Below are positions 23,270-64,000 of a stretch of DNA of 64,000 nucleotides, in pieces. Every line of letters begins with the position of its first letter. Positions within the stretch are counted from its first letter, which is position 1. The notes beneath the pieces were generated by a model, which searched no databases, had not been told where the DNA came from, and worked only from the letters and a program-made list of their open reading frames with translations. The stretch comes from Picosynechococcus sp. PCC 7003. GTDB lineage: Bacteria; Cyanobacteriota; Cyanobacteriia; Cyanobacteriales; MRBY01. The position numbers and the translations under genes are program-made. The stretch is taken from positions 2,374,661 to 2,438,660 of the forward strand of contig NZ_CP016474.1 of NCBI RefSeq assembly GCF_001693255.1. Direction: 5' to 3'.

Positions 23270-23347
23270 CGGTTTTTTAATCCACACGAATGGAAATGTC
23301 AGTTAATTCTGAGGATTTTGGGGATTGAATCTATCCGGCGATCGCCA

Positions 23348-24631
23348 CTACAGATCTCGGTGGGTAAAAGGCTTGGCATCGGGACCACTGTAGGTTGCGG
23401 CAATTTGACCATTGCCGACCAGATGATATTTGTAGGTCACAAGCCCTTCTAAACCCACGGGGCCACGGGGCGGTAAGGTTTGGGTGCTGATGCCCACCTC
23501 TGCGCCAAAGCCGTAGCGGAAACCATCGGCAAAACGGGTCGAGCAATTATGGTAAACGCCCGCTGCCTTCACTTCATTGAGGAAAATCTGGGCCGTGGCT
23601 GCATCTTCTGTGATGATCCCGTCGGTGTGTTTGGAGCCATAGGTATTGATGTGGGCGATCGCCGCTTCGACATCGGTTACAACTTTAATTGCCAGAACTA
23701 AATCGCTATATTCTGTGCGCCAATCTTCTGTCGTCGCGGGTTGGACAGGAATAATCTTTTGGGTTGTCTCATCGCCAATGAGAGTCACTTGTTTCGCCGT
23801 TAAAGCTGCGGCGATCTGGGGGAGAAATTCTGGGGCAATTTTTTCGTGAATCAACAGCGTTTCAACCGCATTACAAGCCGCCGGATACTGGGTTTTCGCA
23901 TCGACAACAATCGGAATGGTTTTGCTTAAATCTGCCGCCATATCAACGTATAGGTGACAAATACCGTCGGCGTGGCCCAGCACGGGGATATTTGTGTTTT
24001 GTTGCACATACTGCACAAAGGCATTAGAACCACGCGGGATGATCAGATCCACATATTCATCGAGGGACAGGAGGGTTTTAATTTCTTCGCGGGTGGTCAG
24101 AAGGGTGACAGCCTGGGGCGAAACGGCAGTGTCCTGGAGGGCGGTTTGGATAATTTCTGTCAACACAGTGCAGGATTGAATTGCTTCTTTACCCCCTTTG
24201 AGAATCACACCATTACCCGATTTAATTGCGAGGCTGGTGATCTGAATCAGCGCTTCTGGGCGGGCTTCAAAAATAATCCCTAAAACCCCCAGGGGACAGG
24301 TGACTCGCTTGAGGACTAAATCTTGATCTAACTCTCGGTGTAACTGGAGATGGCCAATGGGATCAGGGAGGTTAATTACATCATAGATACCGGCGATCGC
24401 CCCTTGCAATTTGCTCTCTCCCAACTTCAGACGGGCATAGAGGGCTGGTGCAATCCCATCTCGCTGGGCTGCTTCACAATCTGCTTGGTTTGCCGCGACG
24501 ATTTTCGCCTGATTTGCCGCGAGGGCTTGGGCCACTTTTTCTAAAGCATCATTACGCTGAGCCAAGCTTAACGTGCCGAGTTTTTGGGCCGCGGCCCGAG
24601 TTTGCTGTGCCAAGTCAATCAGATTCGCCAT
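23348..24631 (-). CDS. proA: Gamma-glutamyl phosphate reductase (glutamate-5-semialdehyde dehydrogenase)
   Basis: Reduces gamma-glutamyl phosphate to glutamate-5-semialdehyde with NADPH, the second step of proline synthesis. The 427-residue protein shows the ProA pattern: [49 protein letters not shown], and the catalytic cysteine in [15 protein letters not shown]. It ends [20 protein letters not shown]. The ATG at 24631 is chosen because GGAGGG lies five bases upstream; the open frame extends four codons further to a TTG. The gene stands downstream of ccmK4 on the same strand, separated by a terminator at 24699-24724, so it probably has its own promoter. Confidence 0.96.
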
Positions 24632-28790: not shown

Positions 28791-30017
28791 ATGAGATGCC
28801 AAACAAAAATAAACATCATCATGCTTAAAATGCTAGCTTTAGCCTTCTTGGGAATTACCAGTTCCATGACCTTCCCAACCATTGCTAAGGCGCTTCCCCA
28901 TCAAAAAATCAATCAATATTTAGAAGAACACCATACCCAATATCAAGCATTAGAATATTTCTCTGGGATTCAATTATCCGTTAAAGTCAGCGATCGCCAA
29001 ACCCAAACTTATGTCATCGGCCAAGAAAGTCATGACCCCAATAGTTCACCCATTACAGCCGAAAGCCTATTTCACATCGGTAGCATCACGAAATCTTTCA
29101 CAGCGACGTTACTTCTCCAAAACGAAAACAATCAAATCCTTGATCTAGATACTGATTTCACCCAATATCTACCCGAATATTCTCACTGGTCTGGAATTAC
29201 GACCACACAGCTTCTGAATATGACATCCGGTTTACCCAATTATTCAGATAGTCCTACGGTTAATTATTTATTTTCCCAAGACCTAGAACAATTTTGGGAA
29301 GAACGCAGTTTAATTGATCTCGTTTATCCACAAAATTCTGCCGCTAAACCACCCCTGAGAAGCGGGTACGACTACAACAATACAGGCTATCTATTAAGTG
29401 CTCTGCTTTTGGAAACAGTTACCGGAGAATCTTTTGCCGATCTGATCACAAACCAGCTTTTGCAACCCTACCAATTGGAAAACACATTTTATCCTGTGCC
29501 TAACCCCAGTGCCGCTGTTCAGCAACGTCTCGTCAGGGGCTACAATTTCAATCCATATACCAACCCGGAACTTGCAGGACAAGATGTTAGCCGTAACAAT
29601 TTGTCTTGGGCCGGGGCTGCAGGAGCCTTAATTTCCAATACAGAAGATATTATCCACTGGGTACAAACATTATTTATTGAAGATCAGCTATTGTCTGCTG
29701 TAGAAAAAGAGAAAATGCAGCAAGTTGTTTCTTTAAAAACAGGTGAACCGATTGCCAAAACTACAGCGGCGGATCCCTATGGTTTTGGTTTGGGGATTAT
29801 TCAAGGTTACGATGAGACCTGGGGGAATTATTGGTTTTATCAGGGAGAAACCCTGGGCTATCGCTCATTTTATGTTTACTTCCCTTGTAATCAAGTAATT
29901 ATTTCTGCTTTATTTAATAGCGCTGTGGACGCTCAAAATAACCATGCCCGCAGTTTAATCCAGCAGGTCTACGGTGCCATTTTAGAAGACGATCCCACCT
30001 TGACATGCCGGACTTGA
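28791..30017 (+). CDS. Secreted serine hydrolase (beta-lactamase / D-Ala-D-Ala carboxypeptidase family)
   Basis: A 408-residue protein of the class C beta-lactamase-like serine hydrolases. The nucleophile motif S-x-x-K is in GSITKSFTATLLL, the second motif Y-x-N is in YDYNNTGYLLSALLL, and a C-terminal G-containing turn (YQGETLGYRSF) takes the place of HxG/KTG. An N-terminal hydrophobic stretch with a plausible cleavage near AKA indicates export. The ATG at 28791 is listed, but in-frame ATGs at 28821 and 28830 would give a more typical signal peptide. The gene is clearly richer in A and T and poorer in HIP1 sites than its neighbours, which may mark later acquisition. The natural substrate is unknown. 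Confidence 0.85.
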   Translation: MRCQTKINIIMLKMLALAFLGITSSMTFPTIAKALPHQKINQYLEEHHTQYQALEYFSGIQLSVKVSDRQTQTYVIGQESHDPNSSPITAESLFHIGSITKSFTATLLLQNENNQILDLDTDFTQYLPEYSHWSGITTTQLLNMTSGLPNYSDSPTVNYLFSQDLEQFWEERSLIDLVYPQNSAAKPPLRSGYDYNNTGYLLSALLLETVTGESFADLITNQLLQPYQLENTFYPVPNPSAAVQQRLVRGYNFNPYTNPELAGQDVSRNNLSWAGAAGALISNTEDIIHWVQTLFIEDQLLSAVEKEKMQQVVSLKTGEPIAKTTAADPYGFGLGIIQGYDETWGNYWFYQGETLGYRSFYVYFPCNQVIISALFNSAVDAQNNHARSLIQQVYGAILEDDPTLTCRT

Positions 30018-46274: not shown

Positions 46275-46293
46275 CCAACCAGACCAGACTTTC

Positions 46294-46851
46294 TCAGATG
46301 GCGGGAATCAAAATGGTTTGCAATAGCTCCTCTACCCGTTGCCGGAGCTTGCGGTTGTGGGGATCAGCCAGGAGTGCTTTGTGGAGATAGGTGCGGGCTT
46401 TGTGGTGCTGCTTCTGTTGGAGTAAATGGCGGCCCCAACTGAGGTAAGTAATCCCTTGCCATTGGCGCACCTCTAGATCCTGGGGAAGACGCTGGGCCAA
46501 CCCTTCCATTAAGGTGATCGCCCTGGCATAGCGTTGTTGTTGTAGACAGTCCTGGAGCCGCTGGTAACTTTCCCACTTCAGCCGCTGATCCAAAGGAGAA
46601 AGGATCGCATTCCCCTTGGGTTGACTCGGTTCTGGGGAAGGGAGCCAGGTTTGTTTGTCCGGGGAACGGTGGATTTCGGCTAGGACTTTATAGGCTTGGG
46701 TAATTTGGATAAATTTATATTCTGCTTGGCGATCGCCGCGATTAACATCCGGGTGACATTGCCGCGCCAAACGACGATAGGCCGCCTTCACTGCCCCCAG
46801 CTCTGCATCAACCCGTAACCCTAAAATTTTGTAGCACTCAAGGAGATTCAT
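46294..46851 (-). CDS. J-domain (DnaJ-like) protein
   Basis: A 185-residue protein with an N-terminal J domain (about residues 1-65) carrying the HPD motif in LARQCHPDVNRGDRQ; the rest of the domain, YRRLARQCHPDVN and FIQITQAYKVLAEI, is typical. The C-terminal half (about 90-180) has two helix pairs of the TPR type (ALLADPHNRKLRQRVEELL). Gly/Phe and zinc-finger regions of full DnaJ are missing, so it is a specialised co-chaperone that stimulates an Hsp70. It is convergent with pilL, 19 bases apart. The partner chaperone is not in the window. Confidence 0.9.
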   Translation of the reverse strand: MNLLECYKILGLRVDAELGAVKAAYRRLARQCHPDVNRGDRQAEYKFIQITQAYKVLAEIHRSPDKQTWLPSPEPSQPKGNAILSPLDQRLKWESYQRLQDCLQQQRYARAITLMEGLAQRLPQDLEVRQWQGITYLSWGRHLLQQKQHHKARTYLHKALLADPHNRKLRQRVEELLQTILIPAI

Positions 46852-59107: not shown

Positions 59108-61411
59108 CTAGGAAAAATAAGCCAGGGTGACGCCAGCCCCTCCTTCCTTTTGCTCGGCGAGTTCGTATCGCTGAATTTGGGGATGGTATTTCAAAAACTC
59201 ATGGACGCCTTCCCGGAGCTTGCCGGTACCTTTACCGTGGATGATCCAAATGACCTGGGATCCCGCAGCGGTGGCAGTGGCGATCGCCTGTTCGAGACTA
59301 CTTTCTGCTTGGTGCATCCGTTGCCCCCGGATATCGATGGTATTGCGTGTGGTGCGCACCGTCACGGTTTCGGGGGTTTTGGCTTTGGGGGGCGCTTGTT
59401 TTTTCGGAGGTTTTTGCTTGGGTTCTGCTTCGACTTTTTGGCCCTGGAGTGATTCAATTTCCGTCCAATCGAGGGACATTTTCATCACCCCAAACCGGGC
59501 AACGAGGGTTTTATTTTCAGGATCCAGTTCAATGACCTCGGCAGTTTGTCCCAGTTTAGAAATGCGGATTTTTTCCCCCAGTTGCGGTTGGTAACCCGGT
59601 TTTTTTCGTTTGGGTTGACTCATTTTGCTGGCGGCAATGCCTCCCAGGGCTTCGGTGGCGGCCTGGGCTTTTTGGGCGGTGGGCTGACCCTTTTGCAGGG
59701 TACGGATCACCTGGGCGATTTCGGATTTGGCTTCGGCGATCGCCGCTTGCACCTGTTGGTCTTGGGCCAGTTTGAGTTCTGCTTCCCGGCGTTGGAGATC
59801 GGCGGCCTTACTGGAGACTTCCGTATAAAAACGTTCGGTCTGTTTCAGGAGGGCTTCGGCTTCCTTTGCTTTTTGTTCCTGTTCCCGCCGCTGGGCTTCG
59901 AGGGCGGCAATCACTTCGTTCACGTTGGTATTGGTATTTCCCAACAAATCCTGGGCTGTTTCGACAATCTCTGCATCTAAACCTAAACGCTGGGCGATCG
60001 CCAGGGCATTGGAACGCCCTGGAATCCCCCAGAGCAACTTGTAGGTGGGCCGCAGGGAATATTCATCAAATTCGACCGAGGCATTTTCAAAGCGCTCATC
60101 CTCGTACTTCAGGGCCTTTAGTTCTCCGTAATGGGTGGTGGCCACCGTGAGCTGGGTCTGGTCTGCTAAATATTTCAACAGGGCGATCGCCAGGGCGCTG
60201 CCTTCGGTGGGATCGGTGCCGGCCCCCACTTCATCGAGGAGCACAAGATTATTTTGATTATCCTGGTCTAAAGCTTCGATAATCCGACCCACACGGCGGA
60301 TATGTCCGGAAAAGGTTGATAAACTCTGCTGGAGAGATTGTTCATCGCCAATATCGGCTAAGACCTGGTCAAACCAAGGAATTTCTACCGGGGCGATCGC
60401 CGGGATAAACAAACCCACTTTCGCCATGAGCGCAGCCATTCCCATGGTCTTCAGGGTGACGGTTTTACCGCCGGTATTGGGGCCTGTGATTGCCACAACG
60501 CGGATTTCTGGGCGGATTTGCACATTAATCGGTATCACTTCCAGGCTTGCTTCTTGTTTCTCTTGCCACACCAGCAGAGGATGGCGCAACTGGCGCAGTA
60601 CCGTCGGTTGATCTGGGGCAATGAATTTGGGCGGGTGTCCATCGAGCCAAAGGCTATAGCGGGCGCGGGTCATGGCTAGATCGAGGGTGGTGGCGATCGC
60701 CAAGAGTTTTTCGAGATCCTCGACCACCTCAGCTACTTTTTCAGTGAGTTGCCGCAGCACAATTTCAATTTCTCGCTCCTCTTGTTTGACGGCCTGACGG
60801 AGACGATTGCCCAACTCCACAATTCCTTTAGGTTCGATATAAAAGGTCGAGCCAGTGCTAGAAATGTCGTGGACGATGCCAGGAATCTGTTCTTTTTGTC
60901 CTGCTTTAACGGGCAACACAAAGCGATCGCCCCGTTGGGTAATCACCGCTTCTTGGATCGAACCACTGTGCCGCTGCATGATCCGCTGCAGGGTTTGGTA
61001 AATCTGCTCCCTGGCCCCTTTGATTTTGACGCGAATTCCTTCGAGCTTCGGGCTAGCTCGGTCTGTAACATCCCCCCGGTCATCGATGCAATGGTGAATG
61101 TCTTGTTCTAATTCTGGGTAGGTGCGTACCTGTTCTACTAGGCGCGTCAATTGGGGGAGTTCTAATTCGGCATTTTCCACCAAGCGCCGCAAACGACGCA
61201 CTCCAGCTAAGGTGGTGGCAATGAGCAATAGATCTTTCCCTGCGATCAGCCCGGTCGGCAGCTTCTTCCGTGGTCGCTTGCTGCTGGGCAAACCAAGTGT
61301 GGAACTGCTGTTTAAGGGAATCAACAAAAAGAGGCGCCATGGCATTGTTGGGGAAAAGCTGCGGGGCGATCGCCTGCCACTTCCCGGAGAAAGGATCGTG
61401 ATCAAGCCCAC
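59108..61411 (-). CDS. mutS2: MutS2 endonuclease with an apparently disrupted N-terminus
   Basis: MutS2 is a branched-DNA-binding ATPase and nuclease that limits homologous recombination and helps rescue collided ribosomes in some bacteria. From the residue coded at 61252 on, about 715 residues match the family: GLIAGKDLLLIATTLAGVRRL, Walker A GPNTGGKTVTLKTMG, Walker B NLVLLDEVGAGTDP, the coiled clamp region and the C-terminal Smr domain IDIRGQRMHQAESSLEQAI with HGKGTGKLREG. The usual first 80 or so residues are absent; the 53 codons preceding 61252 (Pro/Ser/Arg/Leu-rich) do not resemble the family, whereas another minus-strand frame there reads more like protein. The start at 61411 is thus uncertain. 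Frameshift, deletion or sequencing error are all possible. Confidence 0.8.
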   Translation of the reverse strand: MGLITILSPGSGRRSPRSFSPTMPWRLFLLIPLNSSSTLGLPSSKRPRKKLPTGLIAGKDLLLIATTLAGVRRLRRLVENAELELPQLTRLVEQVRTYPELEQDIHHCIDDRGDVTDRASPKLEGIRVKIKGAREQIYQTLQRIMQRHSGSIQEAVITQRGDRFVLPVKAGQKEQIPGIVHDISSTGSTFYIEPKGIVELGNRLRQAVKQEEREIEIVLRQLTEKVAEVVEDLEKLLAIATTLDLAMTRARYSLWLDGHPPKFIAPDQPTVLRQLRHPLLVWQEKQEASLEVIPINVQIRPEIRVVAITGPNTGGKTVTLKTMGMAALMAKVGLFIPAIAPVEIPWFDQVLADIGDEQSLQQSLSTFSGHIRRVGRIIEALDQDNQNNLVLLDEVGAGTDPTEGSALAIALLKYLADQTQLTVATTHYGELKALKYEDERFENASVEFDEYSLRPTYKLLWGIPGRSNALAIAQRLGLDAEIVETAQDLLGNTNTNVNEVIAALEAQRREQEQKAKEAEALLKQTERFYTEVSSKAADLQRREAELKLAQDQQVQAAIAEAKSEIAQVIRTLQKGQPTAQKAQAATEALGGIAASKMSQPKRKKPGYQPQLGEKIRISKLGQTAEVIELDPENKTLVARFGVMKMSLDWTEIESLQGQKVEAEPKQKPPKKQAPPKAKTPETVTVRTTRNTIDIRGQRMHQAESSLEQAIATATAAGSQVIWIIHGKGTGKLREGVHEFLKYHPQIQRYELAEQKEGGAGVTLAYFS

Positions 61412-61622
61412 TTGCTTACAATTTGTCCGCCATTCTAGGGGATATTTGCGGGGTAGCCGACTTTTTCATCAAGACTGCGGCGTTTTATCCCATGATCCCC
61501 TAGGCGATCGCCACTACCCAGTTTCTGAAATTAATATCTTTGTCGTCTTTAAGAAATATAGAAAAAAACCCTGATCTTCGGCGTCATTCGTTATCACAGA
61601 AGATAGAATCCGAGGTCATCCC

Positions 61623-64000
61623 ATGGGATCTCAGCGCCGCTTTCTCAAATTTTTCTTATTAGCTTGCCTCACTTGTTTTTTGACAATTACAAGCCTATCC
61701 GGCTGCAACCCAATCCTCCAGATCAGCCAGGTCACAAACCAAGTCACCCCTTTTCCCACCGTTGCCGCCCTCCCCTTACCGGAACGACCCGACTGGATCA
61801 CAGAAATTAGCCCCACCGGAGATGCCGCCGACCTCGCTCAAATTCGGATTCTGTTTAAACATCCCCTGATCCCCGTTGAACGCATCGATACCCCCAAACA
61901 AGAAGATATTCTCAAGCAAATTCAAATTATTCCGCCGATTTCAGGGCAATTTCGCTTCTTAACACCGAAAATGATTGGTTTTCAAGCAGATCAGCCCCTC
62001 CCCAAAGCCACCCGTTTCCAAGTCACCTTAAAGGCTGGCCTCCAAGACTTAGAAAATCACCAACTTGCCCAAGACCTGGCCTGGACATTTCAGACAACCC
62101 AAATTCGCCTCAGTAATTTACCCGGTGTGGTCGGCACTTTACCTGAAGAGGCAGAACCCCTGGGCCTAGAAGAAGAAAGCACGATCACTAGCAACACCCA
62201 ACTCGATCTCGATTCCCTGAAGCAACACACCGTTTTTGTGAGCGGTCAAAGCAGAGTGAAAGCGGTTGTGACGCCTCAAACGCCTCCAGAAGATCCCATT
62301 GCAGACGGTCAATTCGATCCCGAAAAAACCTGGCAATACATTGTTAAACCCCGTCAACCTTTACAGAAAGCAAGTCAATACACCCTAGAATTTCAACCCG
62401 GCATCGCCCCTGACCAAGGTAATCTACCCACGGAAAAAAGTTTTCGCTCTGTCTTTAAAACCTATGCACCACTGCAATATGAAAAAATCGCTTTCTACGG
62501 ACAGCCCGACGCGGGGGGAGCCTATGGCAGATTTGAAAAAGGGAGTGCGCAACTGGTTTTTAATAATGGTTTGGATGCCGATTCTGCCGTGGAAAATATT
62601 AGCCTCAGTCCGAAACCGGAGGGGGATGATCTCGCCATTCGCACCTATCCCGGTAGCCGTTCGGTGGATCTGAATCCGTGGGTATTGAAACCGAATACCG
62701 ATTACACCATTACCATCAGCAAAAATCTTAAGGATCAATACGGACAAACCCTCGGCAAGGATCAAACCCTTACCTATAACCCCGGTGATGTGGCGGCGGA
62801 TATTTGGGCGCAACGGGATCTCAATATTTTTCCGGCGGGGACGGATTTAAATCTTGATATTGAAACAATTAATTTACCAGAAGGAAAATTTCAGGCGGGT
62901 TATCGGGTCGTCCAACCGACGGATTTGGTTTACGCGGACACTGCTTATCCGCAAAGTAACAGCACTGATTTAGTGCCGCCAGAAAGCAATTGGGAAACCA
63001 TTACGGTTAAACAACCGAAAAATCAGTTGGTGAAAACGCCGATTCCGATTCAGGAAAAATTGAAAGGGAATACGGGTTTACTCGCCTACGGGATTACGGC
63101 AAAAACGAACACCTACAAGGATCAGAATAATCAAACCCAATGGCGATCGCCGCAATATTATGGCTTGGTGCAGCTCACGAATTTAGGGGTGTTTGCCCAG
63201 TGGTTTCCGGAGTCGGGGATTGTGCGGGTACATCATCTGGATACGGGGGAAGCGGTGCGTAATGCCAGGGTGGAAATTTATCAGTCGCAGTTAGACAAGA
63301 AAACAAAGGGCAATCCCACCGCTTGTTTTACGGGACAGACCGATGGGGGTGGCAATGTGGTGGTGACGGGGCGCGGTTGGCGCAGTTGTTTGCGGGGTCA
63401 GGATTACGCGCCGAAATTACTCGTGATTGCCCGCGAAAACTCAGATTGGGCATTTACGCGCACCGATGAATATAGCGGTTCCTATGGTTACGGGATTTAT
63501 GCCGATTGGGATAATGGGGAAAGCCAAGCGCGGGGCACAATTTTTAGCGATCGCCAACTCTATCAACCGGGCGAGAAAGCCTATTTTACGGGGGTTGCCT
63601 ATTATTTGAAAAATGGGAAATTGCGGCAGGATATCAACCAAAATTACAAGGTAATCCTGAGTAATCCTGAGGGGAAAGAGACGACGTTAGGGACGTTTCA
63701 GACGAATCGTTATGGCACATTTACCGCAGAATGGGATGTGCCCAAAACGCAGGATTTAGGCAATTACTACCTCCGCGCCGAAGCGTCGAATGGGGTGAAT
63801 ATTTACGGGGATTTTCGGGTCGCTGAATTCCGTCCGCCCAATTTCAAAGTGGATCTCAAGCTGGATCAAAAATTTGCCACGCTGGGCGATCGCCTCACTG
63901 CCACCACCCAGAGCGATTATTTGTTTGGTGCGCCCGTGAGCAACAGCAAAGTGAATTATTACGTCACCCGCAGTCGCGGTTATTTCCAGCCAGAGGGGTG
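61623..64000 (+). CDS. Alpha-2-macroglobulin-family lipoprotein (3' partial)
   Basis: The frame is open from the ATG at 61623 to the end of the window, giving 792 residues of a longer protein; it continues past base 64000. The N-terminus is a lipoprotein signal with lipobox SLSGC. The visible part has beta-rich domains of the YfaS/A2M type: an N-terminal MG1/bait-like region (IVKPRQPLQKASQYTLEFQP), and the MG2-MG3 pattern DRQLYQPGEKAYFTGVAYY with ENSDWAFTRTDEYSGS before it. Bacterial A2Ms are periplasmic protease traps that work with penicillin-binding protein 1C; the thioester motif CxEQ, if present, would be downstream of the window. It is divergent from mutS2 across 211 bases. Confidence 0.85.
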   Translation, partial: MGSQRRFLKFFLLACLTCFLTITSLSGCNPILQISQVTNQVTPFPTVAALPLPERPDWITEISPTGDAADLAQIRILFKHPLIPVERIDTPKQEDILKQIQIIPPISGQFRFLTPKMIGFQADQPLPKATRFQVTLKAGLQDLENHQLAQDLAWTFQTTQIRLSNLPGVVGTLPEEAEPLGLEEESTITSNTQLDLDSLKQHTVFVSGQSRVKAVVTPQTPPEDPIADGQFDPEKTWQYIVKPRQPLQKASQYTLEFQPGIAPDQGNLPTEKSFRSVFKTYAPLQYEKIAFYGQPDAGGAYGRFEKGSAQLVFNNGLDADSAVENISLSPKPEGDDLAIRTYPGSRSVDLNPWVLKPNTDYTITISKNLKDQYGQTLGKDQTLTYNPGDVAADIWAQRDLNIFPAGTDLNLDIETINLPEGKFQAGYRVVQPTDLVYADTAYPQSNSTDLVPPESNWETITVKQPKNQLVKTPIPIQEKLKGNTGLLAYGITAKTNTYKDQNNQTQWRSPQYYGLVQLTNLGVFAQWFPESGIVRVHHLDTGEAVRNARVEIYQSQLDKKTKGNPTACFTGQTDGGGNVVVTGRGWRSCLRGQDYAPKLLVIARENSDWAFTRTDEYSGSYGYGIYADWDNGESQARGTIFSDRQLYQPGEKAYFTGVAYYLKNGKLRQDINQNYKVILSNPEGKETTLGTFQTNRYGTFTAEWDVPKTQDLGNYYLRAEASNGVNIYGDFRVAEFRPPNFKVDLKLDQKFATLGDRLTATTQSDYLFGAPVSNSKVNYYVTRSRGYFQPEG

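Follow-up and report, generated by a model that had tools for sequence, protein, structure and literature searches.

A probable 13-kb deletion has removed the 5′ end of mutS2 in Picosynechococcus sp. PCC 7003

In the genome of Picosynechococcus sp. PCC 7003, mutS2 appears to lack a proper beginning, which raises the question of what happened to its 5′ end and whether the strain still makes the protein. The locus was analysed within a stretch of 64,000 nucleotides (the window), which belongs to an assembly of 3,345,085 bp in 3 contigs with a completeness of 99.98% (G000). Very probably, a single deletion of approximately 13 kb with both breakpoints inside genes accounts for the present arrangement, and the strain most likely makes little or no working MutS2.

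The mutS2 remnant and the gene fragment upstream of it

The mutS2 remnant is located on the minus strand at 59108..61253 and comprises native codons 86–799 and the last base of codon 85, i.e., 714 codons without a stop or frameshift when numbered from the likely TTG start. It kept the MutS_V, MSSS, and Smr domains, with matches to the MutS domain V ATPase (PF00488, E 5.3e-32) and the C-terminal Smr domain (PF01713, E 1.1e-21). The fusion in the window scored 831 bits against the endonuclease MutS2 profile TIGR01069 (cut-off 400) and resembled this family over profile positions 77–790, which include the three domains. What set it apart was the lack of positions 1–76 (native residues 1–85), in whose place stands sequence from another gene, out of frame; the N-terminal part was thus incomplete compared with PCC 7117, where the match began at position 2. 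The original prediction had placed the onset of homology at 61252, at about residue 80, and this agreed well with the alignments: GLIAGKDLL at 61252 aligned to TIGR01069 position 77 and, in the solved MutS2 chain 7qv3_v (presumably that of B. subtilis), to residue 82; the loss corresponds to the first 81 residues of this chain.

An N-terminal MutS2 motif, (E/D/S)xLxLL(E/D)W or a close form, was present in frame in all 72 evaluable relatives and absent in the window. These loci represented 5 other genomes of the genus and 67 of 70 further loci, with L075 and L077 (N-terminus not covered) and L014 (same genome as L003) left out of the count. The suspicion that the 5′ end is broken was therefore confirmed, since the first 85 residues were missing relative to 72/72 relatives, none of which shared the N-terminal residues found in the window. 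The only second MutS-like match in the same genome was distant (28%, in an 886-codon frame) and was taken as a putative MutS1.

Upstream of 61252 the MutS2 frame remained open for 71 codons, back to a TGA at 61468. As had been suspected of the 53 codons next to the homology, which looked out of frame, the alignment revealed no resemblance of this stretch to the MutS2 N-terminus of relatives. The more protein-like second frame noticed in the same region turned out to be real: it contains the first 29 codons (MAPLFVDSLKQQFHTWFAQQQATTEEAAD; 61254..61340, minus strand) of another gene, which encodes 410 aa in PCC 7117 and whose ATG at 61340 is conserved in that strain. In the window, these 29 codons read on into mutS2, but out of its frame, until a stop at 61080 closes an 86-aa ORF (61080..61340, minus strand). 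The leader of the upstream gene (61341..61622, minus strand) is collinear with PCC 7117 and is now the sole sequence upstream of the mutS2 remnant. It is flanked by a divergent gene on the plus strand (61623..63998) with Big_5 and MG2 domains, bacterial alpha-2-macroglobulin-like, which is likewise collinear with PCC 7117 and runs off the window. The 410-aa protein of PCC 7117 (L091:4535-5767) had no Pfam or NCBIfam match; family-less as it is, its gene directly precedes a small MscS-type gene in PCC 7117 and in three other genomes of the genus.

The junction and the missing segment

Alignment of the window to PCC 7117 located the join at 61253/61254, with each side matching directly up to the junction; this is the exact switch point between the two frames, which the earlier reading could join only by a shift near 61250. 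From 61254 upward, the window DNA aligned to PCC 7117 (G002:C1) up to 2713120, and from 61253 downward it aligned from 2726175 on. Between these two bases, 13,054 bp of PCC 7117 (G002:C1:2713121-2726174) are absent from the window. Following the order in PCC 7117, the left cut falls after codon 29 of the 410-codon gene and the right cut inside mutS2, in codon 85 if numbering begins at the likely TTG start. Both flanks were collinear with PCC 7117, one as a 15.7-kb block with 89% identity and the other, from 61253 down to 2153, as four blocks with 90–91% identity, and the intervening segment was absent from the genome, as expected for a large deletion. The overall identity of roughly 90% was in line with the ANI figures given in a passage of PMC7205611, where PCC 11901 shares 97.48% with PCC 7117 and 90.03% with PCC 7003.

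When PCC 7117 stood in for the parent, the join had 0 bp of microhomology, the value most often obtained with random pairs as well, and no repeat >12 bp was shared between the 300-bp regions around the breakpoints in that strain. None of the segment proteins scanned (seven in one scan and two in another, all from the larger ORFs) matched a transposase or integrase family. Judging by the sequence, nothing foreign to the genus is added at the join. Of the earlier suggestion that a deletion had fused foreign sequence to mutS2, the deletion was thus supported and the foreign origin was not, as the fused codons derive from a gene on the same strand 13 kb upstream in PCC 7117.

In PCC 7117, the segment contains most of the gene for the 410-aa protein, genes for a small and a large MscS-type channel, a GAF histidine kinase, a 113-aa protein, an M16 peptidase, and an 858-aa protein of no family, followed by parD, parE, and 84 codons plus two bases of mutS2. 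When the PCC 7003 genome was searched at the DNA level with the whole segment, and 40 of 166 candidates were scored, nothing came up beyond its two retained edges and a pair of weak matches (77–80 bp). At the protein level, searches of all three contigs, with all candidates scored, covered the 410-aa protein, M16 peptidase, kinase, both MscS proteins, and the 113-aa and 858-aa proteins; no orthologs were found, only distant paralogs. Relocation or inversion of the segment was consequently not supported by either the DNA or the protein searches.

The individual proteins were compared between PCC 7003, PCC 7117, and the other four genomes of the genus (G001, G003, G004, and G005). For the 410-aa protein, only residues 1–33 aligned in the PCC 7003 genome, 29 of them left of the join; the complete or almost complete protein occurred in PCC 7117 and in three further genomes, and was absent from G004. 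The best-scoring match of the M16 peptidase had 29% identity (main stretches ≤30%, short fragments up to 42%) compared with 74–82% in the other four genomes, where the G005 copy is cut at a contig end. Among the matches listed, the histidine kinase reached 34% vs. 46–65%, while the large MscS reached 35% over part of its length vs. 63–77%. The 113-aa protein had no match in the PCC 7003 genome and 59–87% identity in the other four. The kinase, M16 peptidase, large MscS, and 113-aa protein were therefore each present in 5/5 other genomes of the genus and missing here. The small MscS had a best match of 26% in PCC 7003 and 71–73% in G001, G003, and G005, and was also missing from G004. The 858-aa protein was uninformative on loss, because its best match (49%) is a paralog of which PCC 7117 has the same second copy, also at 49%; G004 had a match of 44%, and three of the six genomes had none (G001, G003, and G005).

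Only PCC 7117 showed the 13-kb order in full, the genes being scattered in the other four genomes. However, the small MscS gene follows the 410-aa gene within about 75 bp in PCC 7117, G001, G003, and G005, and a DNA match in G003 spans parDE and the start of mutS2. These pairings indicated that both of the lost neighbourhoods are older than PCC 7117.

Between 2153 and 64000 the window differed from PCC 7117 by more than 1 kb at four sites, including the mutS2 site. At 46276-46298, PCC 7117 has about 6.6 kb extra, in which several ORFs resembled, by eye, a secreted-pilus cluster (chaperone-usher, spore-coat-U-like). At 23302-23348, about 2.8 kb (two ORFs) in PCC 7117 corresponds to 46 bp here, and at 29253-29559 about 1.4 kb corresponds to 0.3 kb; the extra DNA at the latter site has one ORF resembling, by eye, a TnpB-type protein. 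Judged on the window ORFs alone, the neighbouring ORFs at 46276 and 23302 end at or outside the gap, in contrast to the mutS2 site, where both ends cut genes.

Expression, conservation, and function of the remnant

The proposed deletion would have removed everything between codon 29 of the 410-codon gene and mutS2 codon 85, and with it the native mutS2 start, a −10-like sequence, and the 85 N-terminal residues. The rest of mutS2 would now be preceded by the other gene's leader and its first 29 codons, with which it does not share a frame, and any transcript of the remnant would have to come through that leader. Translation from 61340 would lead to the 86-aa dead end, and translation from an ATG at 61345 or a GTG at 61411 would yield MutS2 fusions of 745 or 767 aa, respectively. 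The ATG (61343..61345, minus strand) is the candidate start of a fusion that begins with MPWRLFLL and continues as MutS2 from native residue 86, and is positioned 5 nt ahead of the ATG with which the other gene starts. The GTG (61409..61411, minus strand) is the first ATG, GTG, or TTG in the MutS2 frame after the stop and opens the 767-aa ORF. The earlier statement that the MutS2 frame has no start with a good ribosome-binding site needs correction: ATG 61345 does serve this frame, and an absent Shine-Dalgarno sequence says little here, because none was visible by eye in the intact mutS2 genes of the cyanobacteria sampled, most of which have apparent TTG starts.

In the genus, native mutS2 has no ATG at its start, TTG being the simplest candidate, and a TATAAT was seen by eye on the alignments 31–34 nt upstream in 4/5 relatives; both elements are gone from the window. 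A promoter scan of 61180-61700 gave 0 sites (0.6 expected), as did the native region of PCC 7117 (also 0.6 expected). In structure models, residues 1–31 of the fusion had a predicted pLDDT <50, as had residues 1–40 of the native protein when it was modelled from those same 19 sequences, so the models do not separate the two. The native model, itself of low confidence over residues 1–40, predicts five helices in the N-terminal part that is gone.

The remnant differed from its PCC 7117 counterpart by 162 synonymous and 17 nonsynonymous changes (dN/dS 0.026). At sites equal in three other sequences compared, 3 replacements were private to the window and 3 to PCC 7117. When neutral decay was simulated (200 simulations each), ≤17 replacements were obtained with P 0.80 for decay over 10% of the branch and with P 0.01 for decay over 20%, a threshold that is generous, as it counts both branches. 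The low dN/dS and unbroken frame, without sign of decay, spoke against an old pseudogene. Since the 714 codons are intact and conserved, either the loss was recent, possibly in culture, or the remnant is still in use.

Several explanations were weighed against a single recent deletion. A simple frameshift, as proposed earlier, was rejected: searches of the genome did not recover the missing codons, and what lies upstream of the join is DNA of a different gene. A sequencing error, the other option raised, fared no better, since a point error cannot remove 13 kb. Misassembly is possible and not favoured: that both the 13 kb and an unbroken mutS2 exist in the strain, with the contig misjoined, is improbable in our estimation. 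Such an artefact would equally explain the absence of the four genes found in all five other genomes, and the cuts inside two genes set this site apart from two other large differences in the window. On the other hand, misjoins usually need a shared repeat, whereas the junction has no microhomology relative to PCC 7117 as proxy, and a segment that was not found on any of the three contigs, in a nearly complete assembly, is not merely misplaced. The reverse event, a 13-kb insertion in PCC 7117 with the window as the ancestral arrangement, would fit the occurrence of the whole order in PCC 7117 only. It was rejected and can be regarded as virtually impossible, given that the insertion must have created both the MutS2 N-terminus present in 72/72 relatives and the C-terminal 381 residues of the 410-aa protein, which three other genomes of the genus share with PCC 7117. 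Loss in several steps in place of one deletion is possible, in view of the scattered gene order in the other four genomes; the absence of the small MscS and the 410-aa protein from G004 as well is a further point against the preferred explanation.

A further reading accepts the deletion and concerns only its consequence, so that its probability overlaps with that of the preferred explanation: a shortened MutS2 may still be made, as a fusion from ATG 61345 or GTG 61411 or from an inner start, and be selected through its ATPase and Smr domains. The uninterrupted 714 codons with their low dN/dS, a TIGR01069 score far above the cut-off, and an ATG adjoining the start of the other gene are all consistent with this. 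A recent loss, however, predicts the same signature of conservation, and the predicted N-terminal helices (weakly modelled over the first 40 residues), the native TTG, and the −10-like sequence are gone, and the scan found no promoter-like sites in the new leader (nor in the native PCC 7117 region). Continued production and selection of a shortened protein is considered unlikely. Its specific form, in which a natural isolate uses MutS2 minus the first 85 residues from an ATG borrowed from a neighbouring gene, is a quite doubtful proposition; if true, the N-terminal part would be dispensable for the function selected in cyanobacteria. We infer instead one event that was real rather than made by the assembly, recent, and accompanied by loss of function, with MutS2 activity lost or strongly reduced as the likeliest outcome.

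The site resembles known gene-truncating deletions that produce a pseudogene or hypomorph, in that two fragments are joined out of frame, the intervening genes are lost, and relatives are intact; nothing special distinguishes it from them, and its join has no microhomology (PCC 7117 as proxy). It is very probably a strain-specific structural variant of an ordinary kind and not a new kind of gene. If the deletion is real, PCC 7003 would be a natural mutS2-deficient cyanobacterium that also lacks four genes common to the five other genus members examined, and could readily be compared with close relatives that serve in biotechnology. Its usefulness follows from passages in earlier reports, according to which a mutS2 knock-out raises recombination in Helicobacter (PMC3200294) and Bacillus MutS2 rescues collided ribosomes (PMC12292046); mutS2 is also named among cyanobacterial repair genes in part of PMC5101192. 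The literature searched, in a search not designed to prove absence from print, contained no paper on a mutS2 deletion here. Any annotated MutS2 start in PCC 7003 may be meaningless.

Start codon of mutS2 in cyanobacteria

The nearest start codon upstream of the N-terminal motif was TTG in 69/72 loci, and 66/72 had no in-frame ATG back to the stop; the loci counted (L003-L007 and L015-L083 minus L075 and L077) are related and thus not independent. Exceptions were L071 and L067, with an ATG next to the motif, and L076, with none of ATG, GTG, or TTG. The TTG was 9 codons upstream of the motif in L042 and L046 and within 6 elsewhere. Among 62 mutS2 frames from L014-L083, 49 had their first ATG >60 codons after the stop that precedes the frame, compared with 17 of 130 other long frames from these loci; this is a rough control, based on where the first ATG falls in long ORFs and not on true starts. 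A literature search on a TTG start codon of MutS2 returned no cyanobacterial paper by title. No Shine-Dalgarno sequence was visible by eye in the intact mutS2 genes sampled. From these sequences, mutS2 apparently starts at a conserved TTG in most of the cyanobacteria sampled, and conservation of such a weak start codon may reflect deliberately low expression.
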